The notes under the pieces are model-generated. The model had not been told where the DNA came from and searched no databases. It saw nothing but the letters and a program-made list of their open reading frames with translations. 64,000 nucleotides of DNA. Origin: Alkalispirochaeta americana. Lineage in GTDB: Bacteria; Spirochaetota; Spirochaetia; DSM-27196; Alkalispirochaetaceae. The DNA lies in contig NZ_FTMS01000012.1 of assembly GCF_900156105.1 (NCBI RefSeq), positions 62,001 to 126,000 on the forward strand. Direction: 5' to 3'. This document shows positions 3,770-13,058 of this stretch, piece after piece; within the stretch, counting starts at the first letter, position 1, and every line of letters begins with the position of its first letter. The position numbers were made by a program, and so were the translations under genes.

Positions 3770-4464
3770 TCAGCCAGGGATCGCCGGTGGTGGAGCTGCG
3801 GGGGATCTCCCGGTCCTACCGCTGGCGGGGAACGGTCCGGTCCGTGCTGAACGATCTGGATTGTACCATTCTGCCTGGCACCGTTACGGGCATTCAGGGA
3901 ACATCGGGAACGGGAAAGACCACCCTTGCCCGCGTTCTGGCTGGCCTGGACCGTTCCTTTTCGGGGGCCCGGTGGCTGGCAGGGGATCTTCCCGACGCAG
4001 CGGTGCAGATGGTATTTCAGGATTCCCTGCAGGCTTTCAACCCCAGGTTGTCCCTGGAGATATCCCTTGGTGAGGCTCTGGCAGCGTCGGGGCAGCTCTC
4101 CTGGTTGGGTTCCCGCCGGGAAAGAAAGGTTCTTCTCTCCCGGGCAATCGCCCAGGTGGGGCTGGAGCCGTCTCTGCTGCAACGGACTCCAGGGCGCCTC
4201 TCGGGAGGGCAACGGCAGCGGGCGGCCATTGCCAGGGCACTGCTGATGAATCCGGCCGTGCTCGTTCTGGACGAACCCGTGGCGGCTCTGGATCTGAGTA
4301 TTCAGGCCAGGATTCTTAATCTCCTCCAGCGTCTTCGGGAAGAACGGCTTCAGGAAGCACGGCCGATCGCGCTGGTTGTGATCTCCCATGATCCGGCGGT
4401 GCTGCGCCATTTGTGTGGAGAAATCTATTCCTTGCAGGAGGGAAAACTATGGCGGGAAGAATAG
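3766..4464 (+). CDS. ABC transporter ATP-binding protein, DppF/OppF type (short)
   Basis: A 232-residue ATPase with Walker A GTSGTGKT, signature LSGGQRQR, Walker B VLVLDEPVAALD and H-loop SHD. It starts at an ATGA overlap with the previous stop, with GAGAGG about 9 bases upstream. It lacks the cysteine-rich C-terminal tail normally present on OppF/DppF (usual length about 310-330), so it is a minimal nucleotide-binding domain. The canonical LSGGQ here, against the variant signature in its partner, suggests the two ATP sites are not equivalent. Its end overlaps the binding-protein gene by 16 bp. Confidence 0.9.
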   Translation: MISQGSPVVELRGISRSYRWRGTVRSVLNDLDCTILPGTVTGIQGTSGTGKTTLARVLAGLDRSFSGARWLAGDLPDAAVQMVFQDSLQAFNPRLSLEISLGEALAASGQLSWLGSRRERKVLLSRAIAQVGLEPSLLQRTPGRLSGGQRQRAAIARALLMNPAVLVLDEPVAALDLSIQARILNLLQRLREERLQEARPIALVVISHDPAVLRHLCGEIYSLQEGKLWREE

Positions 4465-6005
4465 CAGGCAAAACGGGGAAGACTCCCCTGGCGGTGGTGG
4501 TTCTGGCTGTTTTGACGGGGCTCTTGATGCTGCCGGCCTGGGCCGGTGCTGCCGGACGGACAGAAGAGGACGCAGCTCCCGGAACCAGGCTGGTCTATGG
4601 AATCTCGGGGGATCCCGACACCCTTGATCCTCACGCTACCACGGGAACGCTCACTTTCCAGACGATGCGAAGCGTCTACGACACTCTGGTTGAACCAGAT
4701 CAGGAGGGGGAAATCGTTCCCGCCCTGGCCTCGTCCTGGGAGGTTTCCAGCGATGGCTTGCGGTGGGTCTTTGAGTTGCGTCAGGGTGTCGTCTTCCATG
4801 ACGGACAGGAGTTCACCTCCCGGGACGTGAAGGCCTCGCTTGAGCGTCTTCGCGATCCTGATTTCGCCTCTCCCAGCTCCCACGAGTTTGCCGTGGTGGA
4901 TCAGGTAATCCCCCACGGGCCCTGGCGGGTGGAGCTGGTTCTCGCAGAGCCCCACGCGCCGCTTCTGGCAACCCTCGCTTCGGGGTGGGCTGCCATGCTC
5001 CCGGCAGATCGCATAACCCAGGGCCATGATTTTGGAGCGGAACCGGTGGGAACCGGTCCGTTCCGTTTCGAGCGCTGGCTCCGGGACAGCGAGATACTCC
5101 TTTCCCGCAACGATTCCTACTGGATGGAGGAGGCCCCCTTCCTGAAGGACGTGCAGTTCCGTGTTATCACCGAGCAGGCGGTGATGGCCCAGGCCCTGGC
5201 GCGGGGGCGCATTGATGTTGCCGATATCGTGGTGGAACCGGAGCTCTCCTTTTTGCGGAATACCGATGCGGTGAAGCTCTACGAATCGACCTCGGCCCTG
5301 GTGATGGTGCTGGCGATCAACACCAGAAGGGCTCCCCTTGATCAGCTGGAGGTGCGACAGGGAATCAACGCGGCGATCGACAAGCAGGCCGCTCTGGATA
5401 TCGCCTATGCCGGGGGGCAAGTGGTGGGAACCTTCATGGATGTTTCCAACCCCTACTACGCCGACTTTACCGACCTGTATTGCCATGATCCGGATTTTGC
5501 CAGAGAGGTAGCAGACAGGACCTCCTTCGATCGGGATCTGGTGATCGTTTTACCCCAGAACTTCGAACCCCATGTGCGGGCCGGAGAACTCTATCACGAG
5601 ATGCTTCGCCAGGCGGGATTTCCCGTGAGAACCCAGCTGGTAGACTGGTCAACCTGGCTGAGTGATGTCTATCGGGGCGGGCAGTTCGATCTGACCGTGA
5701 TTGGCCACACGGGCAAACTGGATCCCCACGGCCGGCTGGCCCGGTATGGTACGGAAAAGACCTACGTGGGCTGGGAAGATGAGGAAACGGCAGCAGCAAT
5801 CGAGGAGGCTCGGCGGGCCCTCGATCCGGAGAGGCGCCGTGAACTCTACGGAGAGGCGTTGCACCGCATGGCCCGGGAGCTGCCCTTCGTCTTTGTGGGG
5901 AGCCCCTACCGCTATGTGGGGCTGAATGCTGCGCTGGAGGGCTTCTTTATGGACAGCCAGCTGGATACACCGGATTTGCGTCGTGTCCGATTCTCTGCGG
6001 ACTGA
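4449..6005 (+). CDS. ABC transporter periplasmic substrate-binding protein, SBP_bac_5 family
   Basis: A 518-residue family-5 solute-binding protein (DppA/OppA/NikA class). It has a signal peptide (charged MAGRIAGKTGK, then a hydrophobic stretch ending near AWAGA) and the family opening LVYGISGDPDTLDPHATT. No lipobox cysteine is visible, so it is probably a soluble periplasmic protein. The ATG at 4449 has a perfect AGGAGG about 7 bases upstream inside the ATPase gene; an in-frame GTG upstream was rejected. It delivers ligand to the permease pair in this operon. Gene order here (permease, ATPase, ATPase, binding protein, permease) differs from the common A-B-C-D-F order. Confidence 0.92.
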   Translation: MAGRIAGKTGKTPLAVVVLAVLTGLLMLPAWAGAAGRTEEDAAPGTRLVYGISGDPDTLDPHATTGTLTFQTMRSVYDTLVEPDQEGEIVPALASSWEVSSDGLRWVFELRQGVVFHDGQEFTSRDVKASLERLRDPDFASPSSHEFAVVDQVIPHGPWRVELVLAEPHAPLLATLASGWAAMLPADRITQGHDFGAEPVGTGPFRFERWLRDSEILLSRNDSYWMEEAPFLKDVQFRVITEQAVMAQALARGRIDVADIVVEPELSFLRNTDAVKLYESTSALVMVLAINTRRAPLDQLEVRQGINAAIDKQAALDIAYAGGQVVGTFMDVSNPYYADFTDLYCHDPDFAREVADRTSFDRDLVIVLPQNFEPHVRAGELYHEMLRQAGFPVRTQLVDWSTWLSDVYRGGQFDLTVIGHTGKLDPHGRLARYGTEKTYVGWEDEETAAAIEEARRALDPERRRELYGEALHRMARELPFVFVGSPYRYVGLNAALEGFFMDSQLDTPDLRRVRFSAD

Positions 6006-6804
6006 CCGTCTCGGGGCGGTGGCGGCCCTGGGGCTTCTGATCCTGGCAGGGCTTGCAAGCCTTGCAGCGGTCCCCCTGGCGGGGGACCCCCTGAATCAGG
6101 ATCTGGCCCGGATGTTCTTGCCGCCCCTGAGTCCGGGGCACCTTCTGGGGACGGATCATTTGGGGAGGGATGTGCTCAGCAGGGTGCTCCACGGAGGGCG
6201 AAGTTCCTTCCTGGTTTCCCTGGGGTCGGCGGGGCTCGCCGCCGTGCTTGGAACCTTTCTGGGGATCGTCTCGGCCATGGACCGCAAGGGAAGTCTTGAC
6301 CGGCTTTTGCAAGTTCTCAACGATGCGATCCTGGCCTTTCCCACCATTCTTCTGGCCATTACCGTGGCTATCATCTTCTCTCCGGGGATCTACCAGGTCA
6401 CGGTTACCCTGGGAATCGTCTTTGCCCCCGTGCTGTACCGGGTTTCCCGGGTTGAGGCGCGGCGGGTGATGCAACAGGAGTTTTATCAAGTTTCGCAGAT
6501 GCTCGGGACGGGTCGGGTCCTGCGGGGTATCCTGCACCTTTTGCCCAACGTGGTTCCCCAGGTGCTGGTTCAGAGTGCCAGTCTCGCCGCTCTGGCGATC
6601 GGGACCGAAGCAGCTCTCTCCTTCCTCGGATTAGGCGCACAGCCGCCGAATCCCAGCTGGGGCCTCATGTTGAACGACGCCCGGCGATATCTTCTGGATG
6701 CACCGTATTTGTCGATTATTCCCGGGGCTGCCGCTGCGCTCCTGGCGTTTTGTTTTCAGTTCCTCTCTGATTACGGAGCCGAGTTCTTCCACCTCCAGGA
6801 GTAG
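5983..6804 (+). CDS. ABC transporter permease, DppC/OppC type
   Basis: Second channel subunit, about 273 residues. It contains the DppC signature LLGTDHLGRDVLSRVLHG, several membrane helices, and a C-terminal part ending in an aromatic-rich LSDYGAEFFHLQE. The start is uncertain: GTG at 5983 gives the usual short cytoplasmic N-terminus (VSDSLRTDRLGAVAALGL) and overlaps the binding-protein gene by 23 bp, while an ATG at 5926 would add 19 poorly conserved residues. Neither has a strong SD. It is the last gene of the importer operon. Confidence 0.87.
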   Translation: MSDSLRTDRLGAVAALGLLILAGLASLAAVPLAGDPLNQDLARMFLPPLSPGHLLGTDHLGRDVLSRVLHGGRSSFLVSLGSAGLAAVLGTFLGIVSAMDRKGSLDRLLQVLNDAILAFPTILLAITVAIIFSPGIYQVTVTLGIVFAPVLYRVSRVEARRVMQQEFYQVSQMLGTGRVLRGILHLLPNVVPQVLVQSASLAALAIGTEAALSFLGLGAQPPNPSWGLMLNDARRYLLDAPYLSIIPGAAAALLAFCFQFLSDYGAEFFHLQE

Positions 6805-6872
6805 CAACCGGCAGGGTGGGTCCCTGTTTGCTCCGGGTGGATCGATCGAGGATCAAACCCGGTTTCCATCGC

Positions 6873-6901
6873 TTTACCTCCCCTGATTCATGGGCTACAC
6901 T
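6873..6901 (+). promoter_or_regulatory. promoter placed directly on the TPR gene start
   Basis: TTTACC (6873-6878), a 17-bp spacer and TACACT (6896-6901). The predicted transcription start, about 7 bases beyond the -10 box, falls on or next to the ATG at 6909, and there is no SD before that ATG. This is the geometry of a leaderless transcript. Confidence 0.5.
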
Positions 6902-6908
6902 TGCTTGC

Positions 6909-7745
6909 ATGAAGTCCTATCGCTACTGGAAGAACCTTTGCCTGGGGATGTTTCTCTGCGGAGTCATTCTGCAGGCTGCGTCAGCGGAGCAAAGACCCGT
7001 CGTTTCCCCGGAAGAGCAGGCCCGGTACGAGGCCCTTCAGGATGAAGCCCGTCGAGCCTACGGGCAGGGGAATCCCCAGGAGGCGCTTCGCCTCTATGAA
7101 GAACTCCAGAACCTGGCCCCCGAAGAGGGGGATATCGCCTACAATCGGGGCACCCTGCTCATGGATCTGGGACGCTACCAGGAGGCGATCGAAGTTTTCT
7201 CCGAGGCCGAAGAGCTGGGAGCCCTCTCGTCCCGCCTCTTCTATAATCGGGGAATCGCCTTCACCAAAACAGGGCATCTCCACCGGGCTCTTCGCGACTA
7301 CGATCGGGCCTGGGAAAAAGCCCCCGAGGATTCAGCGATCCTGAACAACCGGGGGGTGGTCCTGGTTCGGCTTGAGGACATCCAGGAGGCGATCCGCAGT
7401 TTTGAGCTCGCCCACGAGTACACGCCCGATTATCCGGACCCCCTCTTTCACCTGGGAACGATCTTCTACGACCAGGGCGATTTTGAAGAGGCGATCGGGC
7501 GATACCGGCTTGTTCTGGAAATTGACGATTCATTCACCAAGGCCCGATTCAATCTGGGAAACGCCTTGTACCAGGTCGGAGAGTTTCGCCAGGCCTTCGA
7601 GGAGTTTCTGTTGCTCCACCAGCAGGATGGGGAGAACAGCGACGTCTTGTACAATCTGGGGGTGAGCGCCGTGGCCGCCGCCGAAGAAGCCCGGCAGGAG
7701 AAACCCCGGCAGGAAGAAAGAGAGGAAGACCATGGCGATTCGTAA
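6909..7745 (+). CDS. exported tetratricopeptide-repeat protein
   Basis: A 278-residue protein with an N-terminal signal peptide (MKSYRYWKNL, hydrophobic core, cleavage probably after QAASA). It is followed by about five or six tandem TPR units, for example IAYNRGTLLMDLGRYQEAIE and FNLGNALYQVGEFRQAFEEF. TPRs form a superhelical protein-binding scaffold, so it is probably a periplasmic or envelope adaptor. The C-terminus is a charged, low-complexity tail (EEARQEKPRQEERE). The ATG has no SD but lies where a promoter predicts the transcript start. Its end overlaps the acetate kinase gene by 14 bp. No specific partner can be named. Confidence 0.8.
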   Translation: MKSYRYWKNLCLGMFLCGVILQAASAEQRPVVSPEEQARYEALQDEARRAYGQGNPQEALRLYEELQNLAPEEGDIAYNRGTLLMDLGRYQEAIEVFSEAEELGALSSRLFYNRGIAFTKTGHLHRALRDYDRAWEKAPEDSAILNNRGVVLVRLEDIQEAIRSFELAHEYTPDYPDPLFHLGTIFYDQGDFEEAIGRYRLVLEIDDSFTKARFNLGNALYQVGEFRQAFEEFLLLHQQDGENSDVLYNLGVSAVAAAEEARQEKPRQEEREEDHGDS

Positions 7746-8961
7746 ATATCTTGACGGCAAGAACGTTTTGGTCATCAACAGCGGAAGCTCCTCTCTCAAG
7801 TACGAGGTCTACGATATGCCCTCCCGCACCAGCTTGGGGAAGGGCACAGTGGAACGGATCGGTTCCGATGACAGCTTTCTCAAGCAATCAGGCTGGAACG
7901 GGACGGTTGACCTCCGTCAGCCTTTGGAGTCCCACGGGGCAGCGCTGACCCTCATGACCGAGGCGCTCACCGATAGCCAGAATGGCATTCTCACCACTCT
8001 TGACGAGGTCTGGGGAGTGGGGCATCGGGTGGTCCACGGAGGGGAAAAATATTCGTCCTCCGTGGTGATCGATGATGAAGTTCTGGCAGCCATCGAGGAA
8101 AATATCGAGCTGGCGCCGCTGCATAACCCGGCCAACCTCACGGGAATCCAGGAATCAATGCGGCTCCTCCCGGGGCGTCTCCAGGTGGCTGTCTTCGATA
8201 CCGCCTTTCACCAGACTCTCAGCCCCGCAGCGTTTCTCTATGGGCTTCCCCGGGAGCTCTACGAAAAGTTCCGGATTCGCCGCTACGGATTTCATGGAAC
8301 ATCGCACCGCTACGTGTCTGCCCAGGCTGTGCGTTTTGCCAAACGGGCTGTGGAAAACACCAACGTCATATCCTGTCATCTGGGCAACGGAGCCTCCATC
8401 ACGGCGATCCAGAACGGCCGCTCCGTGGACACCTCCATGGGATTCACGCCCCTGGAGGGTCTCCTCATGGGAACCCGCAGTGGCGATCTGGACCCCTCGA
8501 TTATTTTCTATCTTCTCGAACGGGGCTACTCTGCAGAAGAGCTGAAAACGCTTCTCAACAAGAAAAGCGGCCTTTTGGGGCTTTCGGGAATCTCCAACGA
8601 CCTTCGGGATCTGGAAGAAGCAGTAGAACGGGGGGATCGCAACGCGATCGAGGCTCTCGATGCCTACGCCTACCGGGTGCGAAAGTTTATCGGTGCCTAC
8701 GCGGCGAATATCGTGAAGGTTGATATCCTGGTCTTCACCGGCGGGATCGGACAGTTCGGTACGCGAATGCGGGAGCGGATCTGCCACCGTCTGGAGAATC
8801 TGGGGATTGTCATGGACTACCGGAAAAACCTGGAGAACGGAAACCGCGAGGGAATCATCTCCAAGGATTATTCTCCCACCACGATCATTGTGGAGCCCAC
8901 CAACGAGGAGCTGCAAATCGCCATCGATACCTACGATCTGGGGAATGTCTCCGCTACATGA
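7732..8961 (+). CDS. ackA: acetate kinase
   Basis: 409 residues, full length. It interconverts acetyl phosphate plus ADP with acetate plus ATP, the last energy-yielding step of acetate-forming fermentation. Signature motifs are present: VLVINSGSSSLKY at the N-terminus, GHRVVHGG, FDTAFHQTL, RRYGFHGTSHRYV, CHLGNGASI, the substrate loop DTSMGFTPLEGLLMGTRSGD, and FTGGIGQF near the C-terminus. The ATG lies inside the end of the TPR gene, and its stop overlaps the next gene (ATGA), so the three are probably translationally coupled. No phosphotransacetylase gene is adjacent. Acetyl phosphate could also phosphorylate receivers such as the CheY-like protein; that is inference. Confidence 0.97.
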   Translation: MAIRKYLDGKNVLVINSGSSSLKYEVYDMPSRTSLGKGTVERIGSDDSFLKQSGWNGTVDLRQPLESHGAALTLMTEALTDSQNGILTTLDEVWGVGHRVVHGGEKYSSSVVIDDEVLAAIEENIELAPLHNPANLTGIQESMRLLPGRLQVAVFDTAFHQTLSPAAFLYGLPRELYEKFRIRRYGFHGTSHRYVSAQAVRFAKRAVENTNVISCHLGNGASITAIQNGRSVDTSMGFTPLEGLLMGTRSGDLDPSIIFYLLERGYSAEELKTLLNKKSGLLGLSGISNDLRDLEEAVERGDRNAIEALDAYAYRVRKFIGAYAANIVKVDILVFTGGIGQFGTRMRERICHRLENLGIVMDYRKNLENGNREGIISKDYSPTTIIVEPTNEELQIAIDTYDLGNVSAT

Positions 8962-10592
8962 GCCTTCTTACCGCAACAGATTTTCACCAGTGGGTTCGTT
9001 GCCGGCGGCAGTGGGAGGCGGGGGAAGGACCTCTTCCCCGGGATATGACGAGCGAAGTAAACCTGCGGGAGACGGCTCGGGCCGTTGCCACGGGGCAAGC
9101 TCTCTTTGCACAGGATGCTTGTGATCTGCTCCCCCGGCAGGCCCGGGAACGGCAGGTTCCCCCCGCGGCCTGGGTGCTGCGGGCCGAAAGCGTTCCGGCG
9201 GAGATGTCCCTCTGGGCAGAGGAGACTGCCGCCGCTGTGGCTCGGGGAGAGGCCTTCATAAACGGGCTGGTTATTTTCGGAGGTCTGGCCCTGGTGGTGG
9301 ACTGGGGCTATTTTCACAGCCGGGGAGGGGGGTGGGAGCTTTCCTTTTTTCGCCCGGCCACGGGGTTGCGGGGAATCTACGAAGATGAGGCAACCCTGCT
9401 TTTTGAGGCCTGGCATGGCCAGGGTTTTCCCCTGGCGGGAATACATCTGCGCTATCTGGGCAAGAACATTCGCCCTGATCAGTCCTGGTCCCGCGACGAG
9501 TGGCGAGAACTCTTTCGGGAGAGCACGCTCACAGGTCGTGCCGGGAAAGCTCTGAAACGGGTCTCCCGGGAGCGCCAGGAACTCCAGGACCACGCCGCCC
9601 GGGAGGAGCGAGGCCTGCCCGAAGACTACCGTTGCCGCCAGGGGTGCCTTCTCTGTGAAGCTCCTCCCCCGCAAGTGGCAGAGGCGCGATACAGTGTGCT
9701 GACGCTCCACAAGGGGCGCCATCTGGGACGGGAGTTGCAGGCCCGGGGAATCTGCGATATCCGGGAGATCGATCAGTCCCGGGAGAAAGCGCTCACCGAT
9801 CGTCAGCGTCGTCAGATCAGCTCCGTTCTCTCGGAGCGCCTCTTTATCGACCATCAGGGGTTGGCCGCCTTCCTTGAACGCCTTCAGTGGCCCCTCTTCT
9901 TTCTCGATTTCGAAGCCTACTCGCAATCGATTCCTCCCTTTGCGGGGCTTGCTCCCTACGAACATACTCCGGTGATCGCCTCGTTGCAGCGCCAGGACGA
10001 GCCGGGAAAGAGTGTCCAGCCCGGCTGGTTTGCGTGTCCTCCCGGGGAAGACCGGCGAGAGGAGTTCTTTCGATGGCTCTCCCGGGAGGTCGGAGACCAG
10101 GGAAGCCTGGTGGTCTTCAGCAAACCCTTCGAATCGGCCATGGTACGGCAGCTGGCCGCCGTGGCAGGAGAGCCCGAGCGGGGACGCGCTCTGGTGACCC
10201 GTATGGTTGATTTGCTTGAGCCCTTCGCTGATTTCCTGGTGTACCATCCGCAGCAGTGCGGCAAGGTTTCCCTGAAACGGGTCCTGCCCCTCTTTACCGA
10301 AGGCAGTTATGAGGATCTGCGCGTTCGCGACGGGCTTCAGGCAAACCTCTGTTGCACCCGCTGGGCAGACCGGGCTGCAGGAAGAGCGAAGGAAGCGGTT
10401 CGTTCCCTTGGAGCCTGTGCCGCCGAGGGAGCGAGCCTCTTCCTGGAAGAGGAGCTCTCCGGGGAGTCTCCCGGCAGGGAATCCTATTTTGCCTCCCTGG
10501 AGGATGTCTGCGCCTATTGTGCTGTGGATACCCGAGCCATGGTGGATCTGGTGGGGGCCCTGGGAAATCTGCTGGAGGAGTCCTCGTCCTGA
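8958..10592 (+). CDS. DUF2779-type protein: RecB/Cas4-like N-terminus plus DEDD exonuclease-like C-terminus
   Basis: 544 residues, ATGA-coupled to ackA. The N-terminus (LLTATDFHQWVRCRRQW) resembles the start of RecB/Cas4-type nucleases. One cysteine there (C15) and a CRQGCLLC cluster near residues 225-232 reproduce the one-plus-three cysteine spacing of their iron-sulfur cluster. The expected catalytic E-x-K is replaced (WELSFFRP), so that nuclease centre looks inactive. The C-terminal half has an RNase H-fold exonuclease pattern: FLDFEAY (D-x-E, about 315-321), VVFSKPFE, and YCAVD (Y-x3-D, about 519-523), as in DUF2779 proteins. The likely role is nucleic-acid processing. The partnership with acetate kinase is probably positional only. 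Confidence 0.7.
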   Translation: MSLLTATDFHQWVRCRRQWEAGEGPLPRDMTSEVNLRETARAVATGQALFAQDACDLLPRQARERQVPPAAWVLRAESVPAEMSLWAEETAAAVARGEAFINGLVIFGGLALVVDWGYFHSRGGGWELSFFRPATGLRGIYEDEATLLFEAWHGQGFPLAGIHLRYLGKNIRPDQSWSRDEWRELFRESTLTGRAGKALKRVSRERQELQDHAAREERGLPEDYRCRQGCLLCEAPPPQVAEARYSVLTLHKGRHLGRELQARGICDIREIDQSREKALTDRQRRQISSVLSERLFIDHQGLAAFLERLQWPLFFLDFEAYSQSIPPFAGLAPYEHTPVIASLQRQDEPGKSVQPGWFACPPGEDRREEFFRWLSREVGDQGSLVVFSKPFESAMVRQLAAVAGEPERGRALVTRMVDLLEPFADFLVYHPQQCGKVSLKRVLPLFTEGSYEDLRVRDGLQANLCCTRWADRAAGRAKEAVRSLGACAAEGASLFLEEELSGESPGRESYFASLEDVCAYCAVDTRAMVDLVGALGNLLEESSS

Positions 10593-10624
10593 GCGCCCCC
10601 CACGGGCTTGAGAGCGCTCCTTTT
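10591..10624 (+). terminator. terminator after the TPR-ackA-DUF2779 operon
   Basis: Stem GAGCGC (10591-10596) pairs with GCGCTC (10614-10619) around a 17-base loop and is followed by CTTTT. It overlaps the end of the convergent gene. Confidence 0.5.
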
Positions 10625-11444
10625 AGCGAACCTGGAAGTAGGGGATGCTGGCGGCCATCTTGTTGGTTCTGAGGGAAACGTAGGTTCCCCGCAGGATTTC
10701 CGGGTTTGCCTGCAAATAGAAGCGTACAGGAGCGGTGGGGTCCAGGATTCCGATGGACCCGCTTCGGGGGTCGACCTGGATATTAATGCGCAGGTCTTCC
10801 TCCAGGAGGATCGCCAGATCTTCCATGGTGAGGTTGACCCCCCAGGGTTTCAGGGCTTCCACGATATCAAGGCTGACAAAATCATCAACCAGGAAGTTGC
10901 TCAGCTCGGGGTTTCTCGCCAGGAGGGGATCCCGGGCCAGGTCCATAACGCTGTTGGTGGTGCTCTGGTAGAGCTGGGCCCGCAACCCGTAGTGTTCCGG
11001 TCTGGTCAGGCGGGTTTGCTCCCGCGTGTCCAGGTTCATCCAGAGCAGATAGCTCTCGCCGCTTCCCCAGGCGCGCCGGCCCCTGGCAGGAGCATCCACG
11101 CCCAGGTGAATTCCAAAACCGGCGTGGAGTTCAGGAGCCTCCTCAAGAGGCTGCTCGCCGAGCCCTCCCGAAACGTAGCGGATGGAAAACTCCAACTCGT
11201 AGGGCTCGTCCTGAGGAACCCGTCGATCGGCCCTGGCCAGAGGGTCCCGGGGATCCTCCTGAATCAGGCGTCCCTCGCGAACAGTCCACTCCCCCGCCCC
11301 GGGATGCCAGTTGTGAACCGCTGAAAAATCGTCCCGTACGAGGGGAGCTCCAGAGGTTTCTGCTGCGGCGGGGGCGTGTCCCGCTACAAAAAGCAGGGCC
11401 ACAAGAGAATATGCGGTACAGGCAAGGTGGTTCTTCACGGACAT
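10623..11444 (-). CDS. exported protein of unknown function
   Basis: About 273 residues from the ATG at 11444, which has AGGAGA about 10 bases upstream (a GTG six bases upstream is an alternative start). A signal peptide (MSVKNHLACTAYSLVALL, then APAAAE) predicts export. The mature N-terminal half (DDFSAVHNWHPGAGEWTVREG) looks like a concanavalin/LamG-type beta-sandwich opening, with several Trp and Tyr residues. The C-terminal half contains an acidic helical segment and ends in SIPYFQVR. No catalytic motif was recognised. It stands alone on the minus strand, divergent from the yhbY operon and convergent with the DUF2779 gene. Confidence 0.65.
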   Translation of the reverse strand: MSVKNHLACTAYSLVALLFVAGHAPAAAETSGAPLVRDDFSAVHNWHPGAGEWTVREGRLIQEDPRDPLARADRRVPQDEPYELEFSIRYVSGGLGEQPLEEAPELHAGFGIHLGVDAPARGRRAWGSGESYLLWMNLDTREQTRLTRPEHYGLRAQLYQSTTNSVMDLARDPLLARNPELSNFLVDDFVSLDIVEALKPWGVNLTMEDLAILLEEDLRINIQVDPRSGSIGILDPTAPVRFYLQANPEILRGTYVSLRTNKMAASIPYFQVR

Positions 11445-11559
11445 CTTCACAGAATCTCCTGGTGACACGATCTTTCCGGTCACGAAGCTATGATAAAGGT
11501 GATTGTCTTTCGGGGCAACCTCGTGGACCCGGGAAGAGCTCCCGGTGTAGACTGAGACT
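11445..11559. promoter_or_regulatory. divergent intergenic region with a yhbY -10 box close to the ATG
   Basis: The 115-bp gap must hold promoters for both divergent genes. On the + strand TAGACT (11548-11553) lies only 6 bases before the yhbY ATG, with only a weak -35 (TGGACC-like) about 18 bp upstream. There is no SD before the ATG, again suggesting a leaderless message. Confidence 0.35.
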
Positions 11560-11892
11560 ATGGAAGATAGCCGAGAACTAGCAGGATATCAGCGGGCCTT
11601 TCTCCTGCGCCAGGCCCACCGGCTGAACGCCGTGGCGACGGTGGGGAAGCAGGGGCCTTCCGAGAGCGTGCATCGCCACGTGGATCAGGAGCTGGACAAT
11701 CACGAACTGATTAAGGTTCGTTTTTCCGATCACAAGGACGATCGCCGGGAGATCGCCCAGGCTCTAGCCCGGGAACTTCAGGCCACCCTGGTGGCGGTGG
11801 TGGGCCATGTGGCCATACTCTATCGGCCTTCCCGGGATCCGGAACAGCGAAAACTCCATCTGCCGGAACGTCCCCGGGGAGGCCCCCTGTGA
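11560..11892 (+). CDS. yhbY: YhbY-family RNA-binding protein (CRM domain)
   Basis: 110 residues, the usual size. A single CRS1/YhbY (CRM) domain: LRQAHRLNAVATVGKQGPSE carries the glycine loop (G-K-Q-G) that contacts RNA, and HELIKVRF and ATLVAVVGHVAILYR match the rest of the alpha-beta fold. Bacterial YhbY associates with pre-50S ribosomal particles and is thought to aid large-subunit assembly. The C-terminus is basic and proline-rich. The stop overlaps the dehydrogenase start (GTGA), so the three genes 11560-14002 form one coupled unit. Confidence 0.9.
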   Translation: MEDSRELAGYQRAFLLRQAHRLNAVATVGKQGPSESVHRHVDQELDNHELIKVRFSDHKDDRREIAQALARELQATLVAVVGHVAILYRPSRDPEQRKLHLPERPRGGPL

Positions 11893-13058
11893 CGAGTCCC
11901 TCTTTTGCCTGCCCTCGCCAGCCTGCGCTTCTTGTAGAGCAGGGGGGCTTTCTCCGGCTTCCCGAGATTCTGCGGAACCAGGGGTTCTCCCGGCCGGCGA
12001 TCATTACCGCCGGGGGCTCGCTTCGAGGACGACCCCAGTGGGATAGCCTCCTGAAACGCCTCGGGGCGGAACAGTGGCGCTGGTATGATCAGTCGGTGCA
12101 GGGTGAGCCTGGTCCCGCCCTGGTGAACAGTATGGTGGACCGGGTGCGGACCGAGCTGCCCGATTGCGATGTGGTCGTGGCTGTTGGCGGGGGCAGCGTT
12201 CTCGATGCAGCCAAGGCCCTGGCTGCCGGATGCGCCATGGCGGCCGGGGAGGCCGATCCCCACAGTTTCGACATCACGGCCTATCTGGAAGGAGTTGGTG
12301 ATCGGGAACCTTCGGGGGCAACCCTTCCCCTGATTGCCTTTCCTTCCACGGCCGGAACAGGCAGCGAGGCCACAGCGAACGCTGTGCTCAGCACCATTGG
12401 CCCCGGGGGATTCAAGAAATCCCTGCGCCACGATAATTTTATCCCCCTTTTGGCGGTGATCGATGGGGATCTCCACAAAGGGTGCCCCCTTGAGATCACC
12501 CGTGCGGGCGGGCTCGATGCAATTACCCAGCTTCTGGAGGCCTATCTCTCAACCCGGGCAAACCCTCTCACCGATGCCCTGGCTCTTCAGGGGCTGACCT
12601 GCGCAGGCGAGGCCTTCCCCGCCTTGCTTCAGGGTGAGGATACGCCTGTCCTGCGGGAGAAGATGGCCCTGGCGGCCTACCTCAGCGGGGTCTGTCTGGC
12701 AGCAGTCGGACTGGGGCTGGTTCACGGCTTTGCTTCTCCCCTGGGGGCGATGCGGAATATTCCTCACGGGGCGGTCTGCGGCATCCTGCTGGGACCTGTC
12801 AGCCGCCGCACCCTTCGGGAGGCTGATGGTGATACCGTTGCCCGGTATGGTCGAGCTGCCCGGGCTCTGGGACTCTCGCCCTGTGGCGAAGTTCTGGCAG
12901 AAACGGTGCAAACCTGGGCAGCCCCTCTGGGCCGGCTCGGTGATTACGGCTTTACCCGGGAGGATCTGGACCTGGTTGTGGCGGGGACGGGACTGAAAAA
13001 CCATCCCCTCACGCTGGACAAGGCCGCGCTGACGGCGTTGCTTGGCGAGGTGCTATGA
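11889..13058 (+). CDS. iron-type (group III) alcohol dehydrogenase family protein
   Basis: 389 residues, GTG start in a GTGA overlap. The NAD(P)-binding motif VVAVGGGSVLDAAKALA and the substrate/metal region PSTAGTGSEAT mark the iron-dependent alcohol dehydrogenase/FucO family. Of the four metal ligands of FucO-like enzymes, D210, H279 and H293 are present, but the usual histidine in the D-A-x-T-H motif is Q214. The conserved second histidine of the H-G-x-A-H motif is S283. Both changes may alter metal use or substrate. Lying between yhbY and a PfkB kinase, it may act on a sugar-derived aldehyde or alcohol. Specific substrate unknown. Confidence 0.85.
   Translation: MTSPSFACPRQPALLVEQGGFLRLPEILRNQGFSRPAIITAGGSLRGRPQWDSLLKRLGAEQWRWYDQSVQGEPGPALVNSMVDRVRTELPDCDVVVAVGGGSVLDAAKALAAGCAMAAGEADPHSFDITAYLEGVGDREPSGATLPLIAFPSTAGTGSEATANAVLSTIGPGGFKKSLRHDNFIPLLAVIDGDLHKGCPLEITRAGGLDAITQLLEAYLSTRANPLTDALALQGLTCAGEAFPALLQGEDTPVLREKMALAAYLSGVCLAAVGLGLVHGFASPLGAMRNIPHGAVCGILLGPVSRRTLREADGDTVARYGRAARALGLSPCGEVLAETVQTWAAPLGRLGDYGFTREDLDLVVAGTGLKNHPLTLDKAALTALLGEVL

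Follow-up and report, generated by a model that had tools for sequence, protein, structure and literature searches.

A DUF2779 protein of Alkalispirochaeta americana predicted to join an inactivated Cas4-like domain to a DEDDy exonuclease

DUF2779 proteins have been classified as family F.17 of the RNase H-like superfamily, within its 3′–5′ exonuclease clade, and a DUF83 domain has been noted in them (available portion of PMC3985635). Here we describe a member of this family from the spirochaete Alkalispirochaeta americana, a protein of 544 amino acids encoded by an open reading frame (ORF) at 8958..10592 on the + strand, as are all features given below, of a 64,000-nucleotide stretch of the genome (contig NZ_FTMS01000012.1, positions 62,001 to 126,000; this whole stretch is hereafter the window). 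Like the rest of the family, the protein appears to combine a Cas4-like (DUF83) N-terminal domain with an RNase H-like exonuclease domain. Most relatives outside its clade keep a D..E-x-K active site and a C-x5-C-x5-C cysteine cluster, whereas its own clade, which spans the order, has no E-x-K and a shorter cysteine spacing. We regard this E-x-K-less clade as a novel form of the known DUF2779 architecture rather than as a separate type of system. One DUF2779 transposon mutant of Mycoplasma bovis is tabulated among the selected mutants of a cell-culture survival study (available portion of PMC7373297). A literature search limited to open-licence papers found no biochemistry for DUF2779 and, in the accessible text of those papers, no description of a variant without E-x-K.

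The N-terminal domain resembles the iron-staple nucleases Cas4, AddB, Dna2 and EXO5 in predicted fold and in having one N-terminal and three C-terminal cysteines. Unlike them, the window protein has no catalytic E-x-K, is fused to a DEDDy exonuclease and has no helicase or Cas1 domain (Pfam scan, E up to 1). In the accessible part of PMC4176176, iron–sulfur (Fe–S) Cas4 proteins are described as having one N-terminal and three C-terminal cysteines, the latter at positions 200, 203 and 209 in Pcal_0546. There, the Fe–S cluster of AddAB is required to bind DNA ends, and two Cas4 proteins tolerate cysteine loss for cutting and become almost inactive when RecB-motif residues are changed to alanine (PMC4176176). 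TP1 of the archaeal virus TTV1 is likewise an inactivated and reused derivative of the Cas4 fold, but it derives from a split gene and serves as a viral nucleocapsid protein, whereas the window protein comes from a bacterial chromosomal gene and is joined to an exonuclease (available portion of PMC4625639). Family B DNA polymerases have an exonuclease fold like that of residues 310–544; the window protein differs in having no polymerase domain and a glutamate at the presumed Exo II position. In RecC-type proteins, inactive RecB-fold domains keep a dead nuclease fold for DNA binding or routing, as part of RecBCD and with no DEDDy exonuclease. For the window protein, we lean towards a reading as a live DEDDy exonuclease that carries an inactive, metal-stapled Cas4-like domain able to bind nucleic acid.

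Domain architecture and active sites

PF11074 (DUF2779) is the sole Pfam match of the window protein at E values up to 1, covering the full length of the model at residues 314–438 (E = 1.1e-24; 87.6 bits against a cut-off of 23.3), and places the protein in the family. At the same threshold, an NCBIfam scan, where a match to the TM0106-type RecB-like family might have shown, returned no family, and a sequence search against solved structures returned nothing. Folds were examined in two AlphaFold2 models, one of the full protein (13-row alignment, mean predicted local distance difference test score (pLDDT) 75.5) and one of residues 1–310 (12 rows, mean pLDDT 70.5). Conservation was counted in 41 clade rows from 40 genomes (G001 contributes two pieces of one gene), in eight same-order paralogues and in 30 other spirochaete copies, made up of 27 of the 34 PF11074 places outside the order and 3 from the related-genome search, with the second G040 fragment (C352) left out. 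Each count omits rows that lack the column concerned. The closest named relative is from Alkalispirochaeta alkalica, at 75% identity.

The C-terminal half, residues 311–544 (9888..10589), contains PF11074 and is predicted to be a DEDDy 3′–5′ exonuclease domain; among the 50 VIA matches listed for residues 310–544 are family B DNA polymerases at Z 13.5–15.7, the top match having a root-mean-square deviation (rmsd) of 4.0 over 177 residues. Within the domain lies a mostly low-confidence insert (residues 471–510, window 10368–10487), 41% identical to A. alkalica versus 72–84% for other stretches and largely missing from distant relatives. The D-x-E and Y-x3-D motifs named in a preliminary description of this DNA are both present, as Exo I motif D317-F-E319 (9906..9914; 40/40 covered clade copies) and Exo III motif Y520-x3-D524 (Y520-CAV-D524, 10515..10529; 39/39). 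Between them fall E392 (10131..10133), the presumed Exo II acid, present in all 40 clade copies, 8/8 paralogues and 30/30 others, and D418 of a V-D-L motif (10209..10211; 40/40 clade copies). D317, E319, E392, Y520 and D524, set in an RNase H-like predicted fold, thus supply the D-x-E, Exo II acid and Y-x3-D of a DEDDy enzyme, and all six exonuclease positions are intact in 39/39 clade copies, 8/8 paralogues and 30/30 other spirochaete copies. Residue conservation and modelled fold together make exonuclease activity probable.

The N-terminal half is predicted to adopt a Cas4/MGME1-type fold, in line with the kinship proposed in the preliminary description. For residues 1–229 the best VIA match, at Z 11.0, is the Cas4 subunit of a Cas4/Cas1/Cas2 complex (155 residues within 1–228 superposed at rmsd 3.8), followed by MGME1 (10.0), AdnA (9.0), RecE (8.9), EXO5 (8.6), AddAB (8.0) and RecB (6.7); a DinG entry (Z 9.2) sits among these nucleases. 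Both models contain a PD-(D/E)xK beta-beta-beta-alpha-beta core at residues 99–167 (9252..9458). Cas_Cas4 (PF01930) matches by sequence 5 of 14 relatives that retain E-x-K, and the profile of those relatives aligns with the clade profile over its full length. As modelled, the window protein has the N-terminal Cas4/DUF83-like domain that goes with DUF2779.

The catalytic residues of this domain have been replaced. MAFFT alignments place F130-F131-R132 (9345..9353) at the E-V-K of relatives, and the profile–profile alignment, which sets 'WELSFFRPATGLRG' over 'WKIYEVKSSTGLKD', likewise puts them opposite E-V-K, so that the earlier reading of F-F-R at the E-x-K position is borne out. Where an active Cas4/RecB site would have D..E-x-K and a Q motif, the window protein keeps the first acid, D115 (9300..9302; 30 of 38 clade copies share this D and 2 more have E), and has F130, R132 and L148 instead of the rest. 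No clade copy (0/38 covered) has an intact D..E/D-x-K, in contrast to 8/8 same-order paralogues and 23/29 other spirochaete copies. Across the clade, position 130 is L in 24, V in 5 and F in 3 of 39 copies, position 132 is R in 26 and K in 3 of 39, and position 148 is Q in 5 of 40. Clade copy L080 keeps E at 130 and has lost both K132 and D115.

The cysteines of the presumed metal staple have persisted. C15 (9000..9002), the lone N-terminal one, is present in 31 of 32 covered clade copies; the three of the C-terminal cluster C226-x3-C230-x2-C233 (9633..9656), in 36 of 39, in 8/8 paralogues and in 29/29 other spirochaete copies; and all four together in 31/32. In a subset of 34 of the 41 clade rows, the four cysteines (31/32 to 31/34) rank with the best-conserved columns of residues 1–245, a stretch with a mean pairwise identity of about 0.2. 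This contrast with the surrounding columns suggests conservation beyond chance. The cysteines are thus present where the preliminary description had placed them and are conserved in orthologues. Its further claim, that they match the ligands of Cas4 and AddB, stands for their number and placement, one N-terminal and three C-terminal (C15, C226, C230 and C233), as in iron-staple domains, and does not extend to spacing: the clade has C-x2 to x5-C-x1 to x2-C, the commonest form in copies with E-x-K is C-x5-C-x5-C, and neither this nor the spacing of Pcal_0546 is reproduced.

By analogy with these enzymes, we infer that C15, C226, C230 and C233 may hold an Fe–S cluster. They could instead bind zinc, which would give a zinc-stapled module otherwise compatible with our reading; the departure of the clade spacing from that of both E-x-K-bearing copies and Pcal_0546 (cysteines 200, 203 and 209; accessible part of PMC4176176) speaks for this option, and the one-plus-three arrangement of Fe–S Cas4 proteins described in the same portion of that paper, together with the fold matches, speaks against it. 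We regard zinc as a possible ligand, though the less likely one.

Distribution and history of the clade

The gene is widespread in its order. Matches were found in 47 of 100 related genomes, and a profile search of the order gave a match in 44 of 46 genomes, including 20/20 of good quality. Judged by tree and motifs, 41 of the 46 carry a clade copy, two (G032 and G036) have only a copy with E-x-K, one (G027, with a match of about 55 residues) is too short to class, and two (G011 and G034) gave no match in the profile search; among the good-quality genomes, 19/20 have a clade copy, the exception being G032. For G026, the copy was assigned to the clade from its motif and its position downstream of acetate kinase, not from the tree. 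In G011 a 3,191-base contig ends right at a close acetate kinase gene, so absence of the DUF2779 copy cannot be claimed there, and G034, in which no close acetate kinase was found, is 85% complete. Across the phylum, PF11074 matches 34 of 296 genomes, among which four belong to this order; it matches none of 14 named control genomes. A contig-level genome scan gave 2 loci.

A tree was built on residues 244–468, a stretch without the E-x-K and cysteine columns. Among its 77 rows, all 40 clade rows form one group (support 100/99), and the eight same-order paralogues lie in another part; L055 and L170, too short in this region, are omitted, and L072 is a long branch. Paralogues share a genome with a clade copy in five cases (G002, G004, G021, G028 and G042). 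The window protein is apparently a long-standing, vertically inherited gene of the order, and loss of E-x-K, as read from aligned sequences, is common to one clade spanning that order. The same loss is seen beyond this clade, given that 6 of 29 copies from outside the order also have no intact E-x-K (L038, L044, L048, L052, L053 and L056) and that the E-x-K state requires 4 changes among 74 rows on the tree. Four of these six come from family f46, which the tree places as sister group to the clade of the order, and constraint may therefore have loosened earlier.

The inactivated domain nonetheless looks maintained. Compared with A. alkalica, the ratio of non-synonymous to synonymous substitution rates (dN/dS; Nei–Gojobori script) is 0.10 for residues 99–167 (69 codons), 0.18 for residues 311–470 and 0.17 overall, values that are rough because they come from a single species pair with synonymous sites near saturation in places. 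In this pair the dead domain is, on these codon counts, under purifying selection; the low ratio in the core suggests that it has been kept, even as its sequence went on changing after the loss.

Proposed role and alternatives

Under the reading that we favour, the Cas4/RecB domain would have lost the metal-binding E-x-K in the clade ancestor, and motif Q too in most copies, while the cysteine staple and basic residues were kept. This N-terminal domain would bind DNA (or RNA), with ends or single-stranded stretches as possible targets, and present the 3′ end to the C-terminal half, a DEDDy 3′–5′ exonuclease with the fold of family B polymerase proofreading domains and the only nuclease left of two. 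We infer each of these steps, that is, nucleic-acid binding by the N-terminal domain, 3′-end presentation, steering and catalysis. The preliminary description had gone as far as a stapled DNA-binding module that steers an active exonuclease; the predicted fold, site loss, retained cysteines, intact DEDDy domain and purifying selection in one species pair are in keeping with that picture. Three clade copies (L072, L073 and L155) have neither the C-terminal cysteines nor E-x-K and keep every exonuclease residue, so stapling is not strictly required.

A more ambitious version, which we offer tentatively, is domestication across the order: a sporadic dual nuclease would have become a core-genome exonuclease whose dead, metal-stapled Cas4 domain senses DNA ends or redox state and gates the DEDDy activity, with ancestral-type E-x-K paralogues persisting in some of the same genomes. 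In either form, the clade is a natural test case for what iron-staple domains contribute apart from cleavage, the E-x-K paralogues of five of the same genomes serving as controls, and DUF2779 gains a widespread chromosomal representative for study.

Several observations weigh against a live exonuclease with a stapled binding domain. First, neither model had a match at E ≤ 0.001 when Foldseek was used by itself (best 1.4e-3 to Cas4 SSO0001 and 2.7e-3 to EXO5); both fold assignments rest on second looks with VIA, and Cas_Cas4 matches by sequence 0 of 24 clade members. Second, the cysteine loop (residues 216–241) is of low confidence in both models, mostly at pLDDT < 50, and the C-terminal cysteines are gone in 3 of 39 clade copies, through 2 changes on the tree. 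Third, the presumed Exo II position has E instead of D. Fourth, dN/dS rests on one pair, and the RecB core shows a mean pairwise identity of 0.22 among the 34 clade rows versus 0.37 among 26 E-x-K-bearing rows, when the exonuclease region shows 0.40 versus 0.42; a core that has diverged beside an exonuclease that has not is as compatible with a relaxed role as with a novel one.

This last point bears on an explanation that we hold to be rather unlikely, in which the N-terminal domain persists as a remnant with a structural role alone (a scaffold, a dimer contact or a folding aid) and none towards nucleic acid, and the cysteines only hold it together. The dissimilarity of RecB cores among clade members would follow, as would the 6 of 38 clade copies in which position 115 is neither D nor E and the three copies that dispense with C-terminal cysteines and keep the exonuclease residues. 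Against it, the core dN/dS versus A. alkalica is at least as low as that of the exonuclease region, and the clade subset conserves basic residues, R17 (29/32), K169 (27/34) and R132 (23/34), that could be binding residues.

It is very improbable that the N-terminal domain is still a nuclease with a rearranged site, built from D115 with acid 144 and R132 or another base. Migration of catalytic residues is known among PD-(D/E)xK enzymes, and most clade copies have an acid at position 115 (D or E, 32/38) and at position 144 (30/40). However, an acid at 144 is usual in relatives with E-x-K too and so was not moved there as a replacement. K132 occurs in 3 of 39 copies, and the one candidate migrated site examined (acid 144, D or E at 115 and K132) is complete in only 2 of 38, the window protein, with R at 132, not among them; the preliminary description had allowed that E-x-K might lie elsewhere, and no conserved relocation emerged. 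The near inactivity of RecB-motif alanine mutants in two Cas4 proteins (accessible part of PMC4176176) is a further point against it.

The acetate kinase neighbour and recBCD-like genes

The acetate kinase gene (7732..8961) lies directly upstream and overlaps the start of the DUF2779 gene by 4 bases (ATGA), from which overlapping start the window protein would be translated. An acetate kinase gene directly upstream on the same strand is also found at 28 further loci and in G026. Counting the window, this makes 30 of the 35 clade copies for which upstream sequence could be inspected, versus 0 of 25 other copies (7 paralogous and 18 from outside the order). These 25 represent 7/8 paralogues (L158 starts at a contig end) and 18 of the 30 other spirochaete rows. 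The five clade copies not behind acetate kinase are L065, L074, L160, L161 and L166, the last with 747 bases visible. In G005 (L065) the DUF2779 gene follows a TPR gene directly and the best acetate kinase match of the genome is a distant one (47%), so the two genes can part. A role in acetate or acetyl-phosphate metabolism, which the contrast in gene order would favour, is very improbable and we reject it, because the protein is kept in G005 with the neighbouring kinase gone and in G014 and G038 with only a distant kinase found, and because the predicted folds are nuclease folds.

The genome of A. americana has two acetate kinase genes, 46% identical to each other (G000:C15:41580-42767 and window 7732–8961). 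Among eight genomes searched, G005, G014 and G038 have only the distant acetate kinase besides weak matches.

Elsewhere in the A. americana genome, at L188 (G000:C2:256000-270000), three adjacent ORFs (3836–7381, 7231–11169 and 11159–13045; 1181, 1312 and 628 amino acids) look by eye recC-, recB- and recD-like, respectively. PF12705 has one match in this genome, the recB-like ORF, and two or more in 31 of the 46 genomes of the order.

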